In this document: piece by piece, positions 1-42,013 of the stretch | Position numbering within the stretch: the stretch's first letter is position 1 | Layout of the letters: each line of letters begins with the position of its first letter | NCBI GenBank assembly: GCA_016794525.1 | Contig: JAEUJY010000126.1 | Coordinates: 1 to 64,000, forward strand | Reading direction: 5' to 3' | DNA: 64,000 nucleotides | Source of the DNA: Myxococcales bacterium | GTDB taxonomy: Bacteria > Myxococcota_A > Polyangia > Haliangiales > Haliangiaceae | Position numbers and translations under genes: made by a program | Notes under the pieces: model-generated | Databases searched by the model: none | What the model was told of the DNA's origin: nothing | What the model saw: the letters and a program-made list of their open reading frames with translations, nothing else

Positions 1-351
1 CTCCAAACAAACGAAGTGATCAGGGCCGGCGATCCGCGCTGTGTGGGTTGTGAAGAACGGCGCCCCGGCGATCGCGGTCGGAGCGCGCTCCTGGCCGCGC
101 CGTTCTTCAAGGCGGTGTGGGCAACCGCGCGACGCCGACGATGCGCGCCCGCCGGCGCGCCGCCAGGCGCGGTTGTCCACCGCCGCCGGCAACTCCACAG
201 CGCGCTCGGAGCTGGCCGCCTCCCTGGCACGATCGCCGGCCCGCGCGGCGATCGCAGACCGATCGCTCGCCGATCGCCGGTCGATCTGTGCCACTGAATC
301 CTCCTCGGCGCTTGACGTCGGGCTCGTCGGTATTATATTCGCCCATTCAAG
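1..351. other. Gene-free stretch upstream of transposase, rich in GATCGC palindromes
   Basis: I see no convincing gene here; the open frames read as low-complexity Arg/Ala shadows. The stretch is studded with GCGATCGC-like palindromes. The clearest hairpin is at 230-254, where CGATCGCCG (230-238) pairs with CGGCGATCG (246-254) around a 7-nt loop. Hairpins beside a REP-associated transposase can be its substrates, but this one does not match the two-hairpin family found elsewhere in the window. Confidence 0.4.
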
Positions 352-1116
352 ATGGCGACGAAGCGGGCGAGACAGCTGGGGTTGCCGGGGACCGACGGAG
401 CGCCGCGGCGCACAGGCAACGCGACGGGCCACGGCGGCAAGCGCGCCGGCGCCGGGCGCAAGCGGACGCTGCGCGGGCGGGCGCGCGGCAAGCACCGCGC
501 GCGGCCGTTCCACGATCGCCGCCTGCCGGTCCACGTCGTCCTGCGCGTCACGCGGCAGGTCGGCCGCCTGCGTCGGCCGCAGGCGTACGCCGCGGTGCGG
601 GCGGCGATGATCGCGCTGGTCGGGCGCGCCGACTTCCGCGTCGTCCACCTGTCGATCCAGCGCCACCACATCCACCTGTTGTGCGAGGCCGACGATCGGC
701 GCGCGCTGGCCAACGGCGTGCGCGCGCTGTGCGTCTCAGCCGCGAAGCGGCTGAACCGCGCGGTCACCATCGCCGGTGGCGTGCCGCGCCGCGGCCGGGT
801 CTTCACCGACCGCTACCACGCGACGACGCTCGCGAAGCCGCGCCAGGCGCGCCACGCGCTGGCCTACGTGCTCAACAACTGGCGCCGCCACCGCGAGGAT
901 CACGCCGGCCTCGGGCAGCGCCGCGCGCCGCTCGACCGCTACGCCAGCGGCGTGGCCTTCGCCGGCTGGGCCGAGCGCGACGGCCTGCCGTTCGCCTGGC
1001 CCAAGGACTTCGAGCCGATGCCGACGGCGGCGCCGCAGACCTGGCTCATGCAGGGCGGCTGGAAGCGCGGCGGCCCGGCACCCAGCCTGTGGGAGCGCCC
1101 GGGTCCGCTCGCGTGA
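352..1116 (+). CDS. REP-associated tyrosine transposase (IS200-like Y1 family)
   Basis: 254 aa. A basic N-terminal tail (about residues 1-55, Arg/Gly/Lys rich) precedes a Y1 transposase-like domain. The HUH metal-binding motif is visible as H106-I-H108 after a beta strand, and the likely nucleophilic tyrosine is Y172 in AYVLNNWRRH, at the usual place near the end of the catalytic core. RAYTs are single-copy domesticated relatives of IS200/IS605 transposases that nick REP hairpins in single-stranded DNA. There is no second IS gene or terminal repeat, which fits a RAYT better than an active insertion sequence. It stands alone, with hairpins on both sides (230-254 and 1135-1155). Family is well supported by motifs; activity is inferred. 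Confidence 0.85.
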   Translation: MATKRARQLGLPGTDGAPRRTGNATGHGGKRAGAGRKRTLRGRARGKHRARPFHDRRLPVHVVLRVTRQVGRLRRPQAYAAVRAAMIALVGRADFRVVHLSIQRHHIHLLCEADDRRALANGVRALCVSAAKRLNRAVTIAGGVPRRGRVFTDRYHATTLAKPRQARHALAYVLNNWRRHREDHAGLGQRRAPLDRYASGVAFAGWAERDGLPFAWPKDFEPMPTAAPQTWLMQGGWKRGGPAPSLWERPGPLA

Positions 1117-35548: not shown

Positions 35549-36211
35549 TCAGGCCGCGGCGCGGGCGGCGTCGATCGGCGCGGTGACGCCGAGGCGGGCG
35601 CGCACCTCGGTCAGCGGCAGGGTCCACAGGTCGGCCCAGCGCACGGCGAGGAACGGGCGCGCGGCCTTGCCGAGCTGCCAGCCGCGCGCGATCGCGTCGG
35701 TGCGGGCGTCGCGCTCGTCGAACGCGTAGAGGAACGTGTTGATGAAGCCGATGGCCAGGATCGCCGCGGCGAGGCGCGCCGGGAACTGCGCCAGGTAGAA
35801 CGCCTGCAGGCCGAGCTCGCCGGCGACGTCGGTGTCGAAGCCGGTGACGACGTGCCACAGGTCGTGGGTCTCGTAGAGGTGCGCGCGGACCCACGCCTTG
35901 CCGTCGTCGGCGGGGCGACGCGGCAGGTCGGCGGGATCGAGGCCGCGGGCGTCGAGGAACCGCGCGGCCTCGCGGCCGAAGGTGCCGTCGGGGAGCTGGC
36001 GCAGGCGCGGCAGGTCGAGATCGACCCGCGGCCGCTCGGCCATCGCCGCCTGCCCGCCCGGCATCTGCTCGACGTGGCGCACGATCGCCTCGAACGCCGG
36101 CGACTCGCCGAGATCGTCGGCCATCGCGATGACCTCGTCGAGGCGGTTGGGATCGCGGACCAGGCGGAGGGCGGCGCGGGCGATGCGGAAGGCGGTGAGC
36201 GGGTTCTGCAT
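35549..36211 (-). CDS. Coq4-family protein
   Basis: 220 aa. Matches the Coq4 family by H116-D-L-W-H120 (THDLWHVVTGFDTD) and a Glu at 132 (GELGLQAFYL), the metal-binding HDxxH-x(11)-E signature. A helical N-terminus (ALRLVRDPNRLDEVIAM) and RQLPDGTFGREAARFL are also typical. In eukaryotes Coq4 organises and may help catalyse ubiquinone synthesis; bacterial members are less studied. No other ubiquinone gene is near. Divergent from the TetR gene with 195 bp between starts, so it may be that regulator's target. Confidence 0.88.
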   Translation of the reverse strand: MQNPLTAFRIARAALRLVRDPNRLDEVIAMADDLGESPAFEAIVRHVEQMPGGQAAMAERPRVDLDLPRLRQLPDGTFGREAARFLDARGLDPADLPRRPADDGKAWVRAHLYETHDLWHVVTGFDTDVAGELGLQAFYLAQFPARLAAAILAIGFINTFLYAFDERDARTDAIARGWQLGKAARPFLAVRWADLWTLPLTEVRARLGVTAPIDAARAAA

Positions 36212-36359: not shown

Positions 36360-36431
36360 CTCGTGTTTCGCTTGACCTGCCCGTACCCGGCCGGCACGCT
36401 CCACCGATGCGAGCAGACACTCGTGTTTCGC
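36360..36431. repeat. Direct repeat CTCGTGTTTCGC flanking the TetR start
   Basis: The 12-mer occurs at 36360-36371 and 36420-36431, exactly 60 bp apart. The second copy is inside the first codons of the TetR gene. It is a candidate operator pair for autoregulation or control of the divergent coq4-like gene. Confidence 0.35.
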
Positions 36432-37063
36432 CCCGCCCTGCCCGGCCGCGCCGCAGCACCTCGCGCAAGCAGCCGCAGCAGGCGCGCTCGCGGGCGATGG
36501 TCGACACCATCCTCGACGCGGCGGCGCGCGTGCTGCGCAAGCACGGCTACGAGGAGACCTCGACCAACCGGGTCGCCGAGGTGGCCGGGGTCAGCGTCGG
36601 CTCGCTGTACCAGTACTTCCCCAACAAGGAGGCGCTGGTCCACGCGTTGATCGAGCGCCACGACGCGGCGATGTGGTCGGTGTTCACCCACCACGCGACC
36701 GCGGCGATCGGCCGGCCGTTCGCGGTCGCGATCCCGGCGGTGATCGACGCGCTGTTCGCCGCGCACCTGGTCGATCCCGAGCTGCACCGCGTCGTGCACC
36801 AGCAGATCCCGTGGGTCGGCGCGCTGGCGATCCTGCAGACCACCAACCAGCGCTCGCGCGCCGTGGTCGAGGATCTGCTGCGCGCCCGGCCCGATCAGCA
36901 CCAGCGCTCGGACGACGTGGTCACGGCGGCGCTGGTGGTGGTCGAAGCGGTGGAGGCCCTGATCCACGCGTCGATCGAGCTGCCGCTCGAGCAGGCCAAG
37001 GCGGTGCAGCGGCACACCAGCGAGCTGATCTTGCGGTACCTGGGGAGCCCGCAGGTCGAGTAG
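36407..37063 (+). CDS. TetR-family transcriptional regulator
   Basis: 218 aa from ATG 36407. Basic N-terminal arm (RPRRSTSRKQPQQARSRAMV), HTH at ~47-70 (TSTNRVAEVAGVSVGSLYQYF) with the family's YQYFPNKEAL signature. The C-terminal ligand domain is helical and resembles the TetR_C members that begin HxDAAM and contain HRVVHQQIP. Divergent from the Coq4-family gene. The 1.06-kb palindromic minisatellite starts 31 bases after its stop codon. Confidence 0.92.
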   Translation: MRADTRVSPRPARPRRSTSRKQPQQARSRAMVDTILDAAARVLRKHGYEETSTNRVAEVAGVSVGSLYQYFPNKEALVHALIERHDAAMWSVFTHHATAAIGRPFAVAIPAVIDALFAAHLVDPELHRVVHQQIPWVGALAILQTTNQRSRAVVEDLLRARPDQHQRSDDVVTAALVVVEAVEALIHASIELPLEQAKAVQRHTSELILRYLGSPQVE

Positions 37064-37093: not shown

Positions 37094-38155
37094 GTGCCAC
37101 GTGGGAGTCGCGGACCGTCCGGCGCGGCCTGGCGCGGCCGGCGTCCCCGTGGGAGATCGCTGGCCGGTCATCCCGGCGCGGCCTGGCGCGGCCGACGTCC
37201 CACGTGGGAGATCGCTGGACGTCCGGCGCGGCCTGGCGCGGCCGGCGTCCCACCAGGGAGATGGCTGACCGTCCAGCTCGGCCCGGCGCGGCCGGCGTCC
37301 CACGTGGGAGATCGCTGACCGTCCAGCGCGGCCCAGCGGCCGGTGTCCCACGTGGGAGGTCGTTGACCGTCCAGCGCGGCCCGGCGCGGCCGGTGTCCCA
37401 CGTGGGAGGTCGTTGACCGGTCATCCCGGCGCGGCCGGTGTCCCACGTGGGAGATCGCTGGTCATCCGGCGCGGCCGGTGTCCCACGTGGGAGTTCGCTG
37501 ACCGTCCAGCGCGGCCCGGCGCGGCCGGCGTCCCGCGTGGGAGGTCGCTGGTCATCCGGCGCGGCCGGCGTCCCGTGTGGGAGATCGCGAGTCGGCCCGG
37601 CGCGGCCGGCGTCCCACGGGGAGAGCGCTGACCGTCCAGCGCGGCCCAGCGCGGCCGGTGTCCCACGTGGGAGATCGTTGACCGGTCATCCGGCGCGGCC
37701 GGTGTCCACGTGGGAGATCGCTGACCGTCCAGCGCGGCCCGGCGCGGCCGGCGTCCCACGTGGGAGATCGGTGGCCGGTCATCCCGGCGCGGCCGGCGTC
37801 CCACGTGGGAGATCGGTGGCCGGTCATCCCGGCGCGGCCGGTGTCCCACGTGGGAGATCGCTGGCCATCCGGCGCGGCCGGCGTCCCACGTGGGAGATCG
37901 TGAGTCGGCCCGGCGCGGCCGGCGTCCCACGGGGAGAGCGCTGACCGTCCAGCGCGGCCCAGCGCGGCCGGTGCCCCATGTGGGAGGTCGTTGACCGGTC
38001 ATCCCGGCGCGGCCGGTGTCCCACGTGGGAGATCGTTGACCGGTCATCCCGGCGCGGCGGGCGTCCCACGTGGGAGCTCACTAACCGGCCGGCCCGGCGC
38101 GGCCGCGTCCCACGTGGGAGATCCCGGCGCGGCCGGCGTCCCACGTGGGAGACCG
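37094..38155. repeat. Minisatellite: 24 copies of a palindromic 12-mer core
   Basis: 24 cores of the form TCCCACGTGGGA, itself a perfect palindrome, follow each other with centre spacing from 32 to 54 bp. About 15 are exact; others carry one to three changes. Between cores are three kinds of linker built from the same phrases: a long one with ACCGTCCAGCGCGGCC, a middle one with CCGGTCATCCCGGCGCGGCC and a short one with GTCATCCGGCGCGGCC. A larger block is duplicated: units near 37540-37675 recur near 37853-37987, offset about 313 bp. Unit lengths are not multiples of three, so the open frames across it are not coding. Not CRISPR, since linkers repeat. Confidence 0.9.
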
Positions 38156-38248
38156 CGGCACGCACGGCCTCCTGCGCGGGACCGAGGCCACGGCCGGCAG
38201 GGTCCGGCAACGATGTCACATCAAGGCTCGAGGCCGCTCTACAAGTGC

Positions 38249-41143
38249 ATGTACAGGTCCTTCGTCCCGCTCATCGCCGCGCTGGCTCTCGCCGCGTGCG
38301 GTCAGATCACTCCTCCCATCGCCGACGGGCCGACGGCGCCTGACGCCGGCATCGACGGCGCGAACGACCCGATCGACGCGGCCATCGACGCGCCGCCGGT
38401 GCAACCGGTGACGCTGACGGTGAGCCGCAACGGCGCGGGCACGGTCACGTCGACCCCGGCCGGCATCGCCTGCGGCGCGACCTGCCAGGCCGACTTCTCG
38501 ATGGGCACGCAGGTCACGCTGACCGCGGCGGCGGACGCCGGCAGCGTCTTCACCGGCTGGACCGGCGCCTGCACCGGCTCGCAGCCGACCTGCACGCTGA
38601 CCCTGGCCGCCGCGACCTCGGTGACCGCGGCGTTCGCGCCGGTGATGTTCACGGTGACGACGGCGATCGTCGGCAACGGCACCGGCACGGTGGCGGCGAC
38701 GCCGGCGGCGCTCGGGCTGTCGTGCCCGTCGGCGTGCACGGCGACGGTCGCGTACGACACCCCGATCACCCTGACCGCGACGCCGACCGGCGCCTCGCTG
38801 TTCGTCGGCTGGAGCGGCGGCGTCTGTAGCGGCACCGGGCCGTGCACGTTCAACGTGCGCGACAACGTGACGATCAACGCGGCGTTCGCGCTCAACTACA
38901 CGCTGGTGGTCACGCGCACCGGCAACGGCGCCGGCGGCGTGACCTCGACGCCGGCCGGCATCGACTGCGGCGCCGACTGCAGCGAGACCTACAGCGCCAA
39001 CCAGCAGGTGACGCTGACCGCGACCCCGGACGCCGCGTCGACGTTCGCCGGCTGGAGCGGCGCGTGCACGGGCACCGGCGCGTGCGTCGTGACGATGGAC
39101 GCCGCCAAGACCGTCGCCGCGGACTTCCGCCTGCGGCAGTACACGCTCACCACCTCGGTGGGCGGCACGGGCACCGGCACGATCACCTCGAACCCGGTCG
39201 GCATCGCGTGCGGCGCGACGTGCGCGGCGACCTTCGACCACGGCACGATGGTGGCGCTGACCGCCACCGCCGGCGGCACCTCGGCGTTCTCGGGCTGGAC
39301 CGGCGCCTGCACCGGCGTCGGCGCCTGCGTCGTGACGATGGATCAGGCCCGCACCGTCGGCGCCACCTTCACCGTCAACCAGGTGGCGCTGACCGTGAGC
39401 AAGACCGGCACCGGCAGCGGCACGGTGACGTCGACCCCGGCGGGCATCGCCTGTGGCGCGACCTGCACCGCGCCGTTCAACGCCGGCACCTCGATCACCC
39501 TCGCGGCCGCCGCCGACGCCGGCTCGACGTTCGCCGGCTGGAGCGGCGGCGGCTGCAGCGGCCTGGGCGCGTGCACCGTGGCGCTGGCCGCGTCGACCAC
39601 GGTCACCGCGACCTTCACGCTGAACCGCTACACCCTCACCGTGACCCGCTCGGGCGCTGGCGCCATGTACGGCACCGTGACCTCGGCGCCGGCCGGCATC
39701 AACTGCGGCACCGACTGCACCGAGCCCTACGACCACGGCACGATGATCACGCTCACCGCCAGCGGCGGCGCCGGCGGCACGTTCACCGGCTGGAGCGGCG
39801 GCGGCTGCAGCGGCACCGGCACCTGCACCGTCGCGCTGACCGCGGCCGCCACGGTCGACGCGGCGTTCGCGGTGCGGCAGTACACGATCACCGCGGCGAT
39901 CGGCGGCACCGGCCTGGGCACCGTGACCTCGAGCCCGGCGGGCATCTCCTGCCCGAGCACGTGCGCGCGGCCGTTCGACTACGGCACCACCGTGACGTTG
40001 ACCGCCGCGCCGACCGCGGGCGGCCATGTGTTCACCGGCTGGTCGGGCGCGGGCTGCAGCGGCACCGGCACCTGCGTGATCACCGTGGCCGCCGCCGTCA
40101 CCGCCACCGCCAGCTTCGCGCCGCCGCCGAACGTCGCGTTCGTCACGTCGACGGTGCACACCGGCGCGCTCGGCGGCCTCGCCGGCGCCGACGCCATCTG
40201 TCAGGCCCGCGCCAGCGCGGGCGGCCTCACCGGCACGTACCGCGCGTGGCTGTCGACGTCGACCGTCAACGCGTCGACCCGGTTCGGCGCCGCGTCGGGG
40301 TGGGTGCGCGTCGACGGCAAGCCGTTCGTGAACTCGATCAGCGACCTCACCGCCGGCCGCGTCTTCTACCCGCTGTCGATCAACGAGCGCGGCTCGACCG
40401 AGCTGGGCTCGACGGTGTGGACCGGCACCGCCGCCAACGGCACGCTGGCCGGCACCGCCTGCACCGACTGGACCGACGGGACGTCGACCACCATCTCCGG
40501 CGTGATCGGCTTCCCCGAGTACGGGACCTCGGGCTGGACCCAGAACGGCGGCTCGACTTGCAACAACACCCAGCACCTGTACTGCCTGGGCACGAACTGG
40601 ACCGCGACCGTCGCGCCTGCCGCCGCGCCCACCGCGCGCCGCGCGTTCATCTCGAACGCCGCGTGGATCCCGAGCGGCGGCCTGACCGGCGCCGACGCGC
40701 TGTGCGCCAGCGAGGCCAGCGCCGCCGGCCTGACCGGCACGTTCCGCGCGCTCCTCGCCACGACCGGCGCCTCGGCGGCGTCGCGCTTCTCGACCACGGG
40801 CACGCCGTGGGCGCGCGTCGACAACGTGCTCCTGGCGCCGACCGCGGCGGGGTTCCTCGGCAGCGCGGTGGCCGGCCCGCCGACCTTCTGGGACGCGGCG
40901 CTCAACGTCACCGCGGCGGGCAGCTACCGCTTCGATCGCTCGTGGGCGGGCGCCGCGTCGGTGCAGACCTCGGGGTCCGGCACCAGCTGCAGCGGCTGGT
41001 CGACGGTGGCGAACACCGCGTTCGGTGCGGTGGGCATCTCGGCGTCGACGCGGACCGCGACCGCGTTCGCGAACTACACCGGCTCGAGCAGCATCACGAC
41101 CTGCGATAATACGGCGCACAAGATCATGTGCCTGCAGATGTAG
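38249..41143 (+). CDS. Lipoprotein with seven InlB-like repeats and two DUF1554-like domains
   Basis: 964 aa from ATG 38249, which gives a compact lipoprotein signal (MYRSFVPLIAALALAAC); ATG 38213 twelve codons earlier is possible. Asp/Ala linker, then seven ~80-residue InlB-like units (~50-625) of the same type as in the giant lipoprotein at 13.8-19.7 kb. The C-terminus has two related ~160-residue domains (~628-790 and ~795-964) opening FVTSTVHTGALGGLAGADAICQ and ISNAAWIPSGGLTGADALC. They have the DUF1554/endostatin-like pattern (LxGADAxCxxxAxxAGLTGTxRAxL, later CSxW, and a final C-x-M). The domain is found in surface proteins of several bacteria. Its stop is followed by a GC-rich simple repeat. 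Probably a surface adhesin. Confidence 0.82.
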   Translation: MYRSFVPLIAALALAACGQITPPIADGPTAPDAGIDGANDPIDAAIDAPPVQPVTLTVSRNGAGTVTSTPAGIACGATCQADFSMGTQVTLTAAADAGSVFTGWTGACTGSQPTCTLTLAAATSVTAAFAPVMFTVTTAIVGNGTGTVAATPAALGLSCPSACTATVAYDTPITLTATPTGASLFVGWSGGVCSGTGPCTFNVRDNVTINAAFALNYTLVVTRTGNGAGGVTSTPAGIDCGADCSETYSANQQVTLTATPDAASTFAGWSGACTGTGACVVTMDAAKTVAADFRLRQYTLTTSVGGTGTGTITSNPVGIACGATCAATFDHGTMVALTATAGGTSAFSGWTGACTGVGACVVTMDQARTVGATFTVNQVALTVSKTGTGSGTVTSTPAGIACGATCTAPFNAGTSITLAAAADAGSTFAGWSGGGCSGLGACTVALAASTTVTATFTLNRYTLTVTRSGAGAMYGTVTSAPAGINCGTDCTEPYDHGTMITLTASGGAGGTFTGWSGGGCSGTGTCTVALTAAATVDAAFAVRQYTITAAIGGTGLGTVTSSPAGISCPSTCARPFDYGTTVTLTAAPTAGGHVFTGWSGAGCSGTGTCVITVAAAVTATASFAPPPNVAFVTSTVHTGALGGLAGADAICQARASAGGLTGTYRAWLSTSTVNASTRFGAASGWVRVDGKPFVNSISDLTAGRVFYPLSINERGSTELGSTVWTGTAANGTLAGTACTDWTDGTSTTISGVIGFPEYGTSGWTQNGGSTCNNTQHLYCLGTNWTATVAPAAAPTARRAFISNAAWIPSGGLTGADALCASEASAAGLTGTFRALLATTGASAASRFSTTGTPWARVDNVLLAPTAAGFLGSAVAGPPTFWDAALNVTAAGSYRFDRSWAGAASVQTSGSGTSCSGWSTVANTAFGAVGISASTRTATAFANYTGSSSITTCDNTAHKIMCLQM

Positions 41144-41144
41144 G

Positions 41145-41329
41145 CGGGGGGCGGGGACGGGGACGGGGACGGGGACGGGATCCGGATCGGGATCGGGGAG
41201 CGGGATCGGGGAGCGGGATCCGGATCGGGATCCGGATCGGGATCCGGATCGGGATCCGCCACGAGATCGGGCACGGGCACGGGCACGGGCACGGGCACGG
41301 GATCCGGCACCGGCACGGGATCCGCGCGT
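41145..41329 (+). repeat. Intergenic GGGGAC and GGATCC-type simple repeats
   Basis: Three blocks follow each other: GGGGAC hexamers (~41151-41180), then GGATCCGGATCGGGATCC-type 12-mers (~41181-41260), then GGGCAC hexamers (~41272-41300). Open frames here give only Arg-Asp or Asp-Pro runs and are not genes. The region separates the lipoprotein stop from queE and could form quadruplexes on the plus strand. Confidence 0.8.
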
Positions 41330-41362: not shown

Positions 41363-42013
41363 GTGTACGCGGTCAAGGAGCTGTTCCTCACGCTGCAGGG
41401 CGAAGGCGCCCAGGCGGGTCGGGCGGCGGTGTTCGTGCGGTTCACGGGCTGCAACCTGTGGTCGGGGCGCGCGGCGGATCGCGGGCGCGGGACGGGTGGA
41501 TGCGCGGCGTGGTGCGACACCGACTTCGTCGGCACCGACGGCGCGGGCGGCGGCAAGTTCGCCACCGCGGACGCGCTGGCGGACGCGGTGATCGCGGCGT
41601 GGGCGCCGCGGGCGGCGGCGCCGTACGTGGTGTGCACCGGCGGCGAGCCGCTGTTGCAGCTCGACGCGCCGCTGATCGCGGCGCTGCGGGCGCGCGGCGC
41701 GACGATCGCGATCGAGACCAACGGCACCCAGGCGGTGCCGGCGGGGATCGACTGGGTGTGCGTCAGCCCCAAGGCCGGCGCGCCGCTGGCGATCACCGGG
41801 GGCGACGAGCTGAAGCTGGTGTACCCGCAGCCGGCGGCGCCCGCCGAGCTGGCGCCGGAGCGGCTGCGCGCCCTGCCCTTCACCCACTACTTCTTGCAGC
41901 CCCTCGACGGCCCCGACCGCGACGCGGCGATCGCCGCGTGCGTCGCCTACTGCCGCGACCACCCGCCGTGGCGGGTGTCGCTGCAGACCCACAAGCTCTT
42001 GCGCATCCCGTGA
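41363..42013 (+). CDS. queE: 7-carboxy-7-deazaguanine synthase
   Basis: 216 aa from ATG 41363. Radical SAM enzyme that forms the 7-deazaguanine ring for queuosine or archaeosine-type modification. Typical sequence: ELFLTLQGEGAQAGRAAVFVRFTGCNLW, ending CDTDFVGTDG, then VVCTGGEPLLQLD, IETNGTQ, VSPKAG and HYFLQPLDGP. The three cluster cysteines are C30, C47 and C51, giving Cx16Cx3C instead of the classic Cx3Cx2C; QueE with an insertion in this motif is known. The rest of the pathway is not in the window. No preQ1 riboswitch is visible upstream; the leader is a simple repeat. Confidence 0.92.
   Translation: MYAVKELFLTLQGEGAQAGRAAVFVRFTGCNLWSGRAADRGRGTGGCAAWCDTDFVGTDGAGGGKFATADALADAVIAAWAPRAAAPYVVCTGGEPLLQLDAPLIAALRARGATIAIETNGTQAVPAGIDWVCVSPKAGAPLAITGGDELKLVYPQPAAPAELAPERLRALPFTHYFLQPLDGPDRDAAIAACVAYCRDHPPWRVSLQTHKLLRIP

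Follow-up and report, generated by a model that had tools for sequence, protein, structure and literature searches.

Dispersed palindromic minisatellite arrays, non-coding and species-specific, in a Myxococcales genome

The array and its neighbourhood

In the window (the whole stretch of 64,000 nucleotides analysed here), a tandem array of palindromic cores starts about 31 bp beyond the stop codon of a gene for a TetR-family regulator and is followed by a lipoprotein gene (table 1). A second tandem repeat, unrelated to the array, lies directly 3' of the lipoprotein stop codon. The array is no assembly artefact, since it is embedded in 64 kb of contig sequence and other arrays of its kind stand between unique genes. 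In the closest sister species (G006; the genome of the window is called G000), the genes follow in the order eno-coq4-tetR-queE, and the start of queE overlaps the stop codon of tetR. Relative to that order, the window carries about 4.3 kb of extra DNA between tetR and queE, an insertion made up of the array, the lipoprotein gene, which is missing at the corresponding place in G006, and the second repeat. TetR proteins are palindrome binders, and the preliminary description had named this regulator, or another factor, as a candidate ligand of the cores. Adjacency is the one point in favour of an operator array of the neighbouring regulator; yet the array lies 3' of tetR and not before it, the TetR orthologue of G006 (70% identity) has no adjoining array, and other arrays adjoin unrelated genes. 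A special link to TetR is thus not supported, and we give the operator reading almost no credence.

Table 1. Positions of the array, its parts and other features of the window
Feature	Position	Strand	Remarks
Y1 transposase copy	316-1116	+	other copies on contigs C57, C15, C19, C95, C26, C143, C51, C106, C25, C47, C109, C72, C127, C102, C151
Coq4-like protein	35549-36211	-	conserved neighbour
TetR-family regulator	36407-37063	+	domain matches TetR_N, TetR_C_15
Tandem array, 24 palindromic cores	37094-38155	.	non-coding; units 31-54 bp
Shared-seed example	37196-37215	-	reads CGATCTCCCACGTGGGACGT on the - strand; 35-array consensus
313-bp higher-order block, first full copy	37612-37924	.	Tandem Repeats Finder period 313 and core distances
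313-bp block, second copy, partial	37925-38123	.	Tandem Repeats Finder and core distances
Lipoprotein	38214-41143	+	divergent InlB B-repeats and DUF1554; start approximate
Second tandem repeat	41147-41322	.	units GGGGAC / CGGGATCCGGAT / CACGGG
Radical-SAM protein	41363-42013	+	sub-threshold Pfam match; queE-like by inference

The core TCCCACGTGGGA is exact in 15 of the 24 copies, and these 15, spanning 37198-38150, are the only exact occurrences in the window (none in 100 shuffles); the other nine differ from it by one to three edits. The 24 perfect palindromes of the preliminary description therefore shrink to 15, the higher figure standing if near-cores are counted. With these included, the cores run from 37095 to 38150 in tandem, as described before, at core-to-core distances of 31-54 bp (previously given as 32-54), and a very degenerate 25th core lies at 38170. 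Tandem Repeats Finder reports a period of 45 at 37181-38123 (score 844), together with a higher-order period of 313 bp at 37278-38123 (2.7 copies, 86% matches). The latter bears out the earlier observation of a copied block of several units, which between the cores at 37612 and 37925 follow one another as 49-44-49-45-45-40-41. Three main linker lengths, giving units of about 50, 45 and 40 bp, likewise match the three mixed linker kinds first proposed. The unit lengths are not multiples of three, which supports the non-coding reading. In an Rfam search the array gave no match, the single chance match falling outside it, and searches of plasmids, phages and viral contigs returned no relative.

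One core and private linkers across the genome

The window array belongs to a dispersed, species-specific family of non-coding palindromic minisatellites. In G000 (9.8 Mb in 177 contigs) the exact core occurs 348 times; base composition leads us to expect about one occurrence, and a reversed control gave none. The cores are gathered at no fewer than 44 places, about 40 of them distinct after joining contig ends where a single array seems to be split in two; both totals are lower bounds. The period differs between arrays, from 24 bp up to about 64 bp. Outside arrays, a 400-kb sample of G000 (360 kb readable) contained no core. About 16 of the 44 places are contig ends, so the copy numbers of other arrays are probably underestimated, and the arrays seem to break short-read assemblies. 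At the contig ends C38/C82, C48/C167 and C50/C173 we observed array halves with matching linkers, which suggests that these contigs adjoin and that the assembly was broken by the arrays.

Across the 35 arrays that were compared, each oriented to its flank pattern and given one vote in the consensus, nothing is shared but an approximately 18-bp seed, [G/C]ATC-TCCCACGTGGGA-CG, with [G/C]ATC on one side of the core and CG followed by variable sequence on the other; it recurs genome-wide in the form CGATCTCCCACGTGGGACGT. The 12-mer itself is invariant bar one position in one array. Linkers, on the other hand, are unrelated between arrays: once the shared seed flanks had been removed, 136 pairs scored against dinucleotide shuffles gave a mean z of -0.06, and none exceeded 3. 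Within arrays, 3.4% of copies deviate at core positions versus 13.4% at linker positions, an approximately fourfold difference which is inflated where linker types were already mixed at birth. Core error lies below linker error in every array tested (Wilcoxon P = 2e-6), although arrays were found via the core, so that a family whose cores had drifted would escape notice, and the error jumps sharply at the borders of the 12-mer. Since the core is kept globally while the linkers are private, each array was seemingly amplified locally around the same seed.

The preliminary description had offered both a protein site and a cruciform for the core. The first proposal gains from these data, as the deviation pattern is what a putative sequence-specific recognition site would leave. 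The cruciform, as a selected feature, is not favoured: only 2 of 46 double-mutant cores carry compensated changes, no clear excess, and the linkers contribute no more folding than shuffled ones do (mean z 0.07). It is thus the sequence, not the hairpin, that is kept.

The reader might be a DNA-binding protein of the host, whether nucleoid-associated, ParB/Noc-like or a global regulator, making of the arrays some 40 chromosome-organising or protein-storage clusters whose core is kept by binding selection. The sharp 12-bp borders of the constraint, and an identical core recurring in arrays that are otherwise unrelated, speak in its favour. So does a likeness to parS, which like the Noc site (NBS) is palindromic, the two having the centres CACGTG and CCCGGG, respectively (PMC7383237); each half-site of the core differs by one change from the parS sites of G000, GTTCCACGTGGAAC. 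However, each half-site also departs from the consensus TGTTYCACGTGRAACA in one position or more, the genome has six true parS sites in other places, with canonical parS at C79:125.9-126.9 kb, and the cores occur in dispersed tandem arrays. A search with TIGR00180 found one ParB in G000 and no ParB/Noc paralogue with an altered recognition helix; the recognition region of this ParB is nearly identical to that of array-free G006, on which ground a switch in parS/Noc specificity was rejected. Core spacings also vary from 20 to 59 bp over the arrays with no consistent helical phase (a hint of phasing, vector 0.38, was not accepted, as it stems for the most part from the abundance of 24-26-bp units), and as all sister species examined lack the arrays, these are not needed for a conserved process. 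On balance, we consider a role of the arrays as binding sites of a host protein rather unlikely. A role of the window array in recombination or chromosome organisation, as first suggested, is possible.

Gene ends as a probable site of repeat growth

Arrays mostly start 7-60 bp beyond stop codons. Of the array edges that come within 60 bp of a gene, 28 are at its 3' end and 3 at its 5' end. The gaps that hold arrays are convergent in 9 cases, tandem in 14 and divergent in 2; control gaps 100 bp long or more divide into 9, 50 and 34, a control that rests on home-made gene calls. The neighbouring genes, judged by eye from first residues, are ordinary ones, among them genes for a HisS-like synthetase, transketolase-like, ribosomal protein S15-like and DnaJ-like proteins, and several lipoproteins. 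The seed shows no preferred orientation relative to the nearest gene (8 same, 11 opposite, by hand count).

Such strong 3' placement would suit an RNA element, namely a terminator or mRNA-stabilising hairpins, and the core as UCCC-ACGU-GGGA could form a 4-bp hairpin. Yet the folding of the arrays does not exceed that of linker shuffles, compensated changes are few, as set out above, and there is no U-run. At the transketolase site, moreover, a separate perfect hairpin with a 10-bp stem, GGAGGGTTTC-TCGC-GAAACCCTCC, already stands between stop codon and array (L071:2065-2110); as it precedes the array, the terminator-like element there is distinct from it. We regard an RNA function of the arrays as very doubtful.

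The copy count in related genomes, suggested as a check in the preliminary description, gave a one-sided answer: pairs of cores number 180 in G000 and none in 55 relatives, six genomes of the same genus included. Nor did any such array turn up in those six genomes or in the 378 other genomes of the phylum (379 in total). Among about 85,000 species genomes, arrays of three cores occurred elsewhere only in one remote Tannerellaceae genome. That metagenome-assembled genome holds two AT-rich arrays with the TCCCACGTGGGA core and other linkers (L081:2840-3130 and L082:1870-2100), whose core variants include TCTCACGTGAGA, a compensated double change. Given the distance, the AT-rich genome and the different linkers, these were not accepted as relatives and were taken as chance or convergence.

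Two gaps illustrate the gain. Between the CinA-like and HisS genes, G000 has 480 bp including an array, versus 240 in G006 and 103 in G004, a further sister species; the transketolase gap measures 354 bp, versus 73 in G006, 60 in G004 and 10 in G005. With neighbours conserved on both sides and sister species free of the array, both are array-only gains. By eye, the empty sites of the sister species contain no linker-like stretch. Other repeats occupy the CinA-like/HisS gap there, (GAGACC/GAGGCC)n in G006 and (CGGGCA)n in G002 and G005. The hexamer arrays of G006 share the niche of the palindromic arrays, directly 3' of genes and mostly in convergent gaps, and even hold this orthologous gap; they differ in their unrelated 6-bp unit, their want of a palindrome and their far greater number. 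In 400 kb of G006 we counted 35 intergenic tandem arrays, mainly of the GAGACC/GAGGCC hexamer. When a few at sample edges are added, 44 array edges come to within 60 bp of a 3' end and 7 as close to a 5' end, and 22 arrays stand in convergent gaps. In the same 400 kb (L113-L131), about 30 hexamer arrays (GAGACC/GAGGCC and variants) stand directly 3' of genes, which extrapolates to several hundred genome-wide. A sample of G002 contained only three intergenic arrays, so the habit of growing repeats is not uniform in the genus. The gene-end spacers of the genus thus seem to be where tandem repeats grow, the repeat differing by species.

Origin and relation to known repeats

We lean, with reserve, towards an origin in two stages, in which a seed was copied to gene ends and then amplified locally, leaving a species-specific satellite with a global seed and local linkers. 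A short seed would have been copied into gene-end spacers; at each site the seed and some adjacent DNA would have been tandemly amplified; and later block rearrangement, such as the 313-bp duplication, would have followed. Local amplification and rearrangement would make the linkers local and leave the core global. The conservation pattern suggests that a trans-acting, sequence-specific protein kept the core intact by recognising it, candidate readers being an enzyme that copies or amplifies the core and a host DNA-binding protein that came to use it. The placement would fit selection that tolerates growth behind stop codons and not in promoters. The copying step is one that we infer, as the analysis brought to light no recombinase, transposase or protein that binds the core. 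Two observations count against the scheme. Solitary seeds, expected if seeds move singly, did not turn up in about 0.5 Mb. Array ends are no more degenerate than middles (36 of 54 versus 165 of 242 cores exact), unlike a classic, neutrally homogenised satellite.

The two-stage scheme can be set against several known systems. Prokaryotic non-coding satellites, as in Leptospira or Chloroflexus, consist of tandem repeats that are specific to a species and dispersed through its genome (PMC6749651), and the arrays described here are likewise non-coding, head-to-tail, species-specific and scattered; there, however, a family shares its repeat unit, whereas here only the palindromic seed is common and the rest is private to each array. 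In CRISPR arrays the spacers are unique and similar in length, while the present linkers are near-copies of varying length.

In neisserial intergenic mosaic elements (NIMEs), hundreds of short inverted-repeat cores alternate with linkers and form intergenic arrays 200-2,700 bp long (PMC3898611). Were the arrays recombination elements of that kind, a site-specific recombinase or a phage integrase would act at the core, and the arrays would promote exchange of adjacent genes such as gain of the lipoprotein. The layout resembles the neisserial dRS3/RS arrays in the alternation of inverted-repeat cores and linkers. In the window, array and lipoprotein both belong to the extra DNA that separates tetR from queE; at another array, the right-hand neighbour of the DnaJ-like gene differs from that in the sister species. 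Against this stand the two array-only gains with both neighbours conserved, the lack of phage or plasmid relatives in the searches made and of any integration event seen inside a core. Lipoprotein genes are not significantly enriched among array neighbours either (5 of 33 versus 19 of 238 genes, P = 0.15). The elements differ as well: dRS3 is ATTCCC(N8)GGGAAT, with no match in the window, and the conserved core is another sequence; NIMEs have RS linker families, whereas the present linkers are array-specific; and the 12-bp core is conserved throughout, with no integrase or phage known for it. A NIME-like recombination system is therefore an improbable explanation.

REPs are short palindromes found mostly 3' of genes and between convergent genes (PMC3733652), and the arrays share the 3' placement. 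An REP/BIME-type element mobilised by an RAYT (Y1) transposase could also draw on the 17 Y1 transposase genes of G000, versus 0-10 in sister species of the genus. Yet the core is absent from the flanks of all 17, inspected over up to about 2.5 kb per side and less at contig ends. REPs are palindromes of 20-40 bp with a GTAG or CGTC tag at one end, whereas the core is a perfect 12-bp palindrome without either; they occur as scattered singlets or inverted pairs, whereas in the G000 sample cores were confined to direct tandem arrays. Mobilisation by RAYT has, in our view, only a slim chance of being right. On the best reading, the arrays are REP-like in placement and NIME-like in layout and belong to neither class, nor do they conform to parS/Noc sites or CRISPR.

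Beyond the two-stage scheme, a bolder extension, which we offer as speculation with perhaps a minor share of the probability, would have a putative sequence-specific protein read the core, the approximately 40 independently grown arrays being chromosome-organising landing platforms or the target of a new seed-amplification enzyme, and the gene-end spacers of the genus being recurrent nurseries that raise a different satellite in each species. If a protein does read the core, some 40 chromosomal platforms become traceable. A kept core beside unrelated linkers separates copying across the genome from amplification on the spot, two processes usually mixed in satellite DNA, and where sister species have unrelated repeats in one and the same gap at a gene end, the birth and replacement of bacterial satellites become directly testable.

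The Y1 genes deserve a separate remark. Most of the 17 RAYT-like genes of G000 are near-identical in protein sequence, and G006 has none. Their match to the NCBIfam model REP_Tyr_transpos falls far below the cut-off, and upstream of many copies lies a conserved stretch that includes GCGCTGTGTGGGTTGTGAAGAACG.
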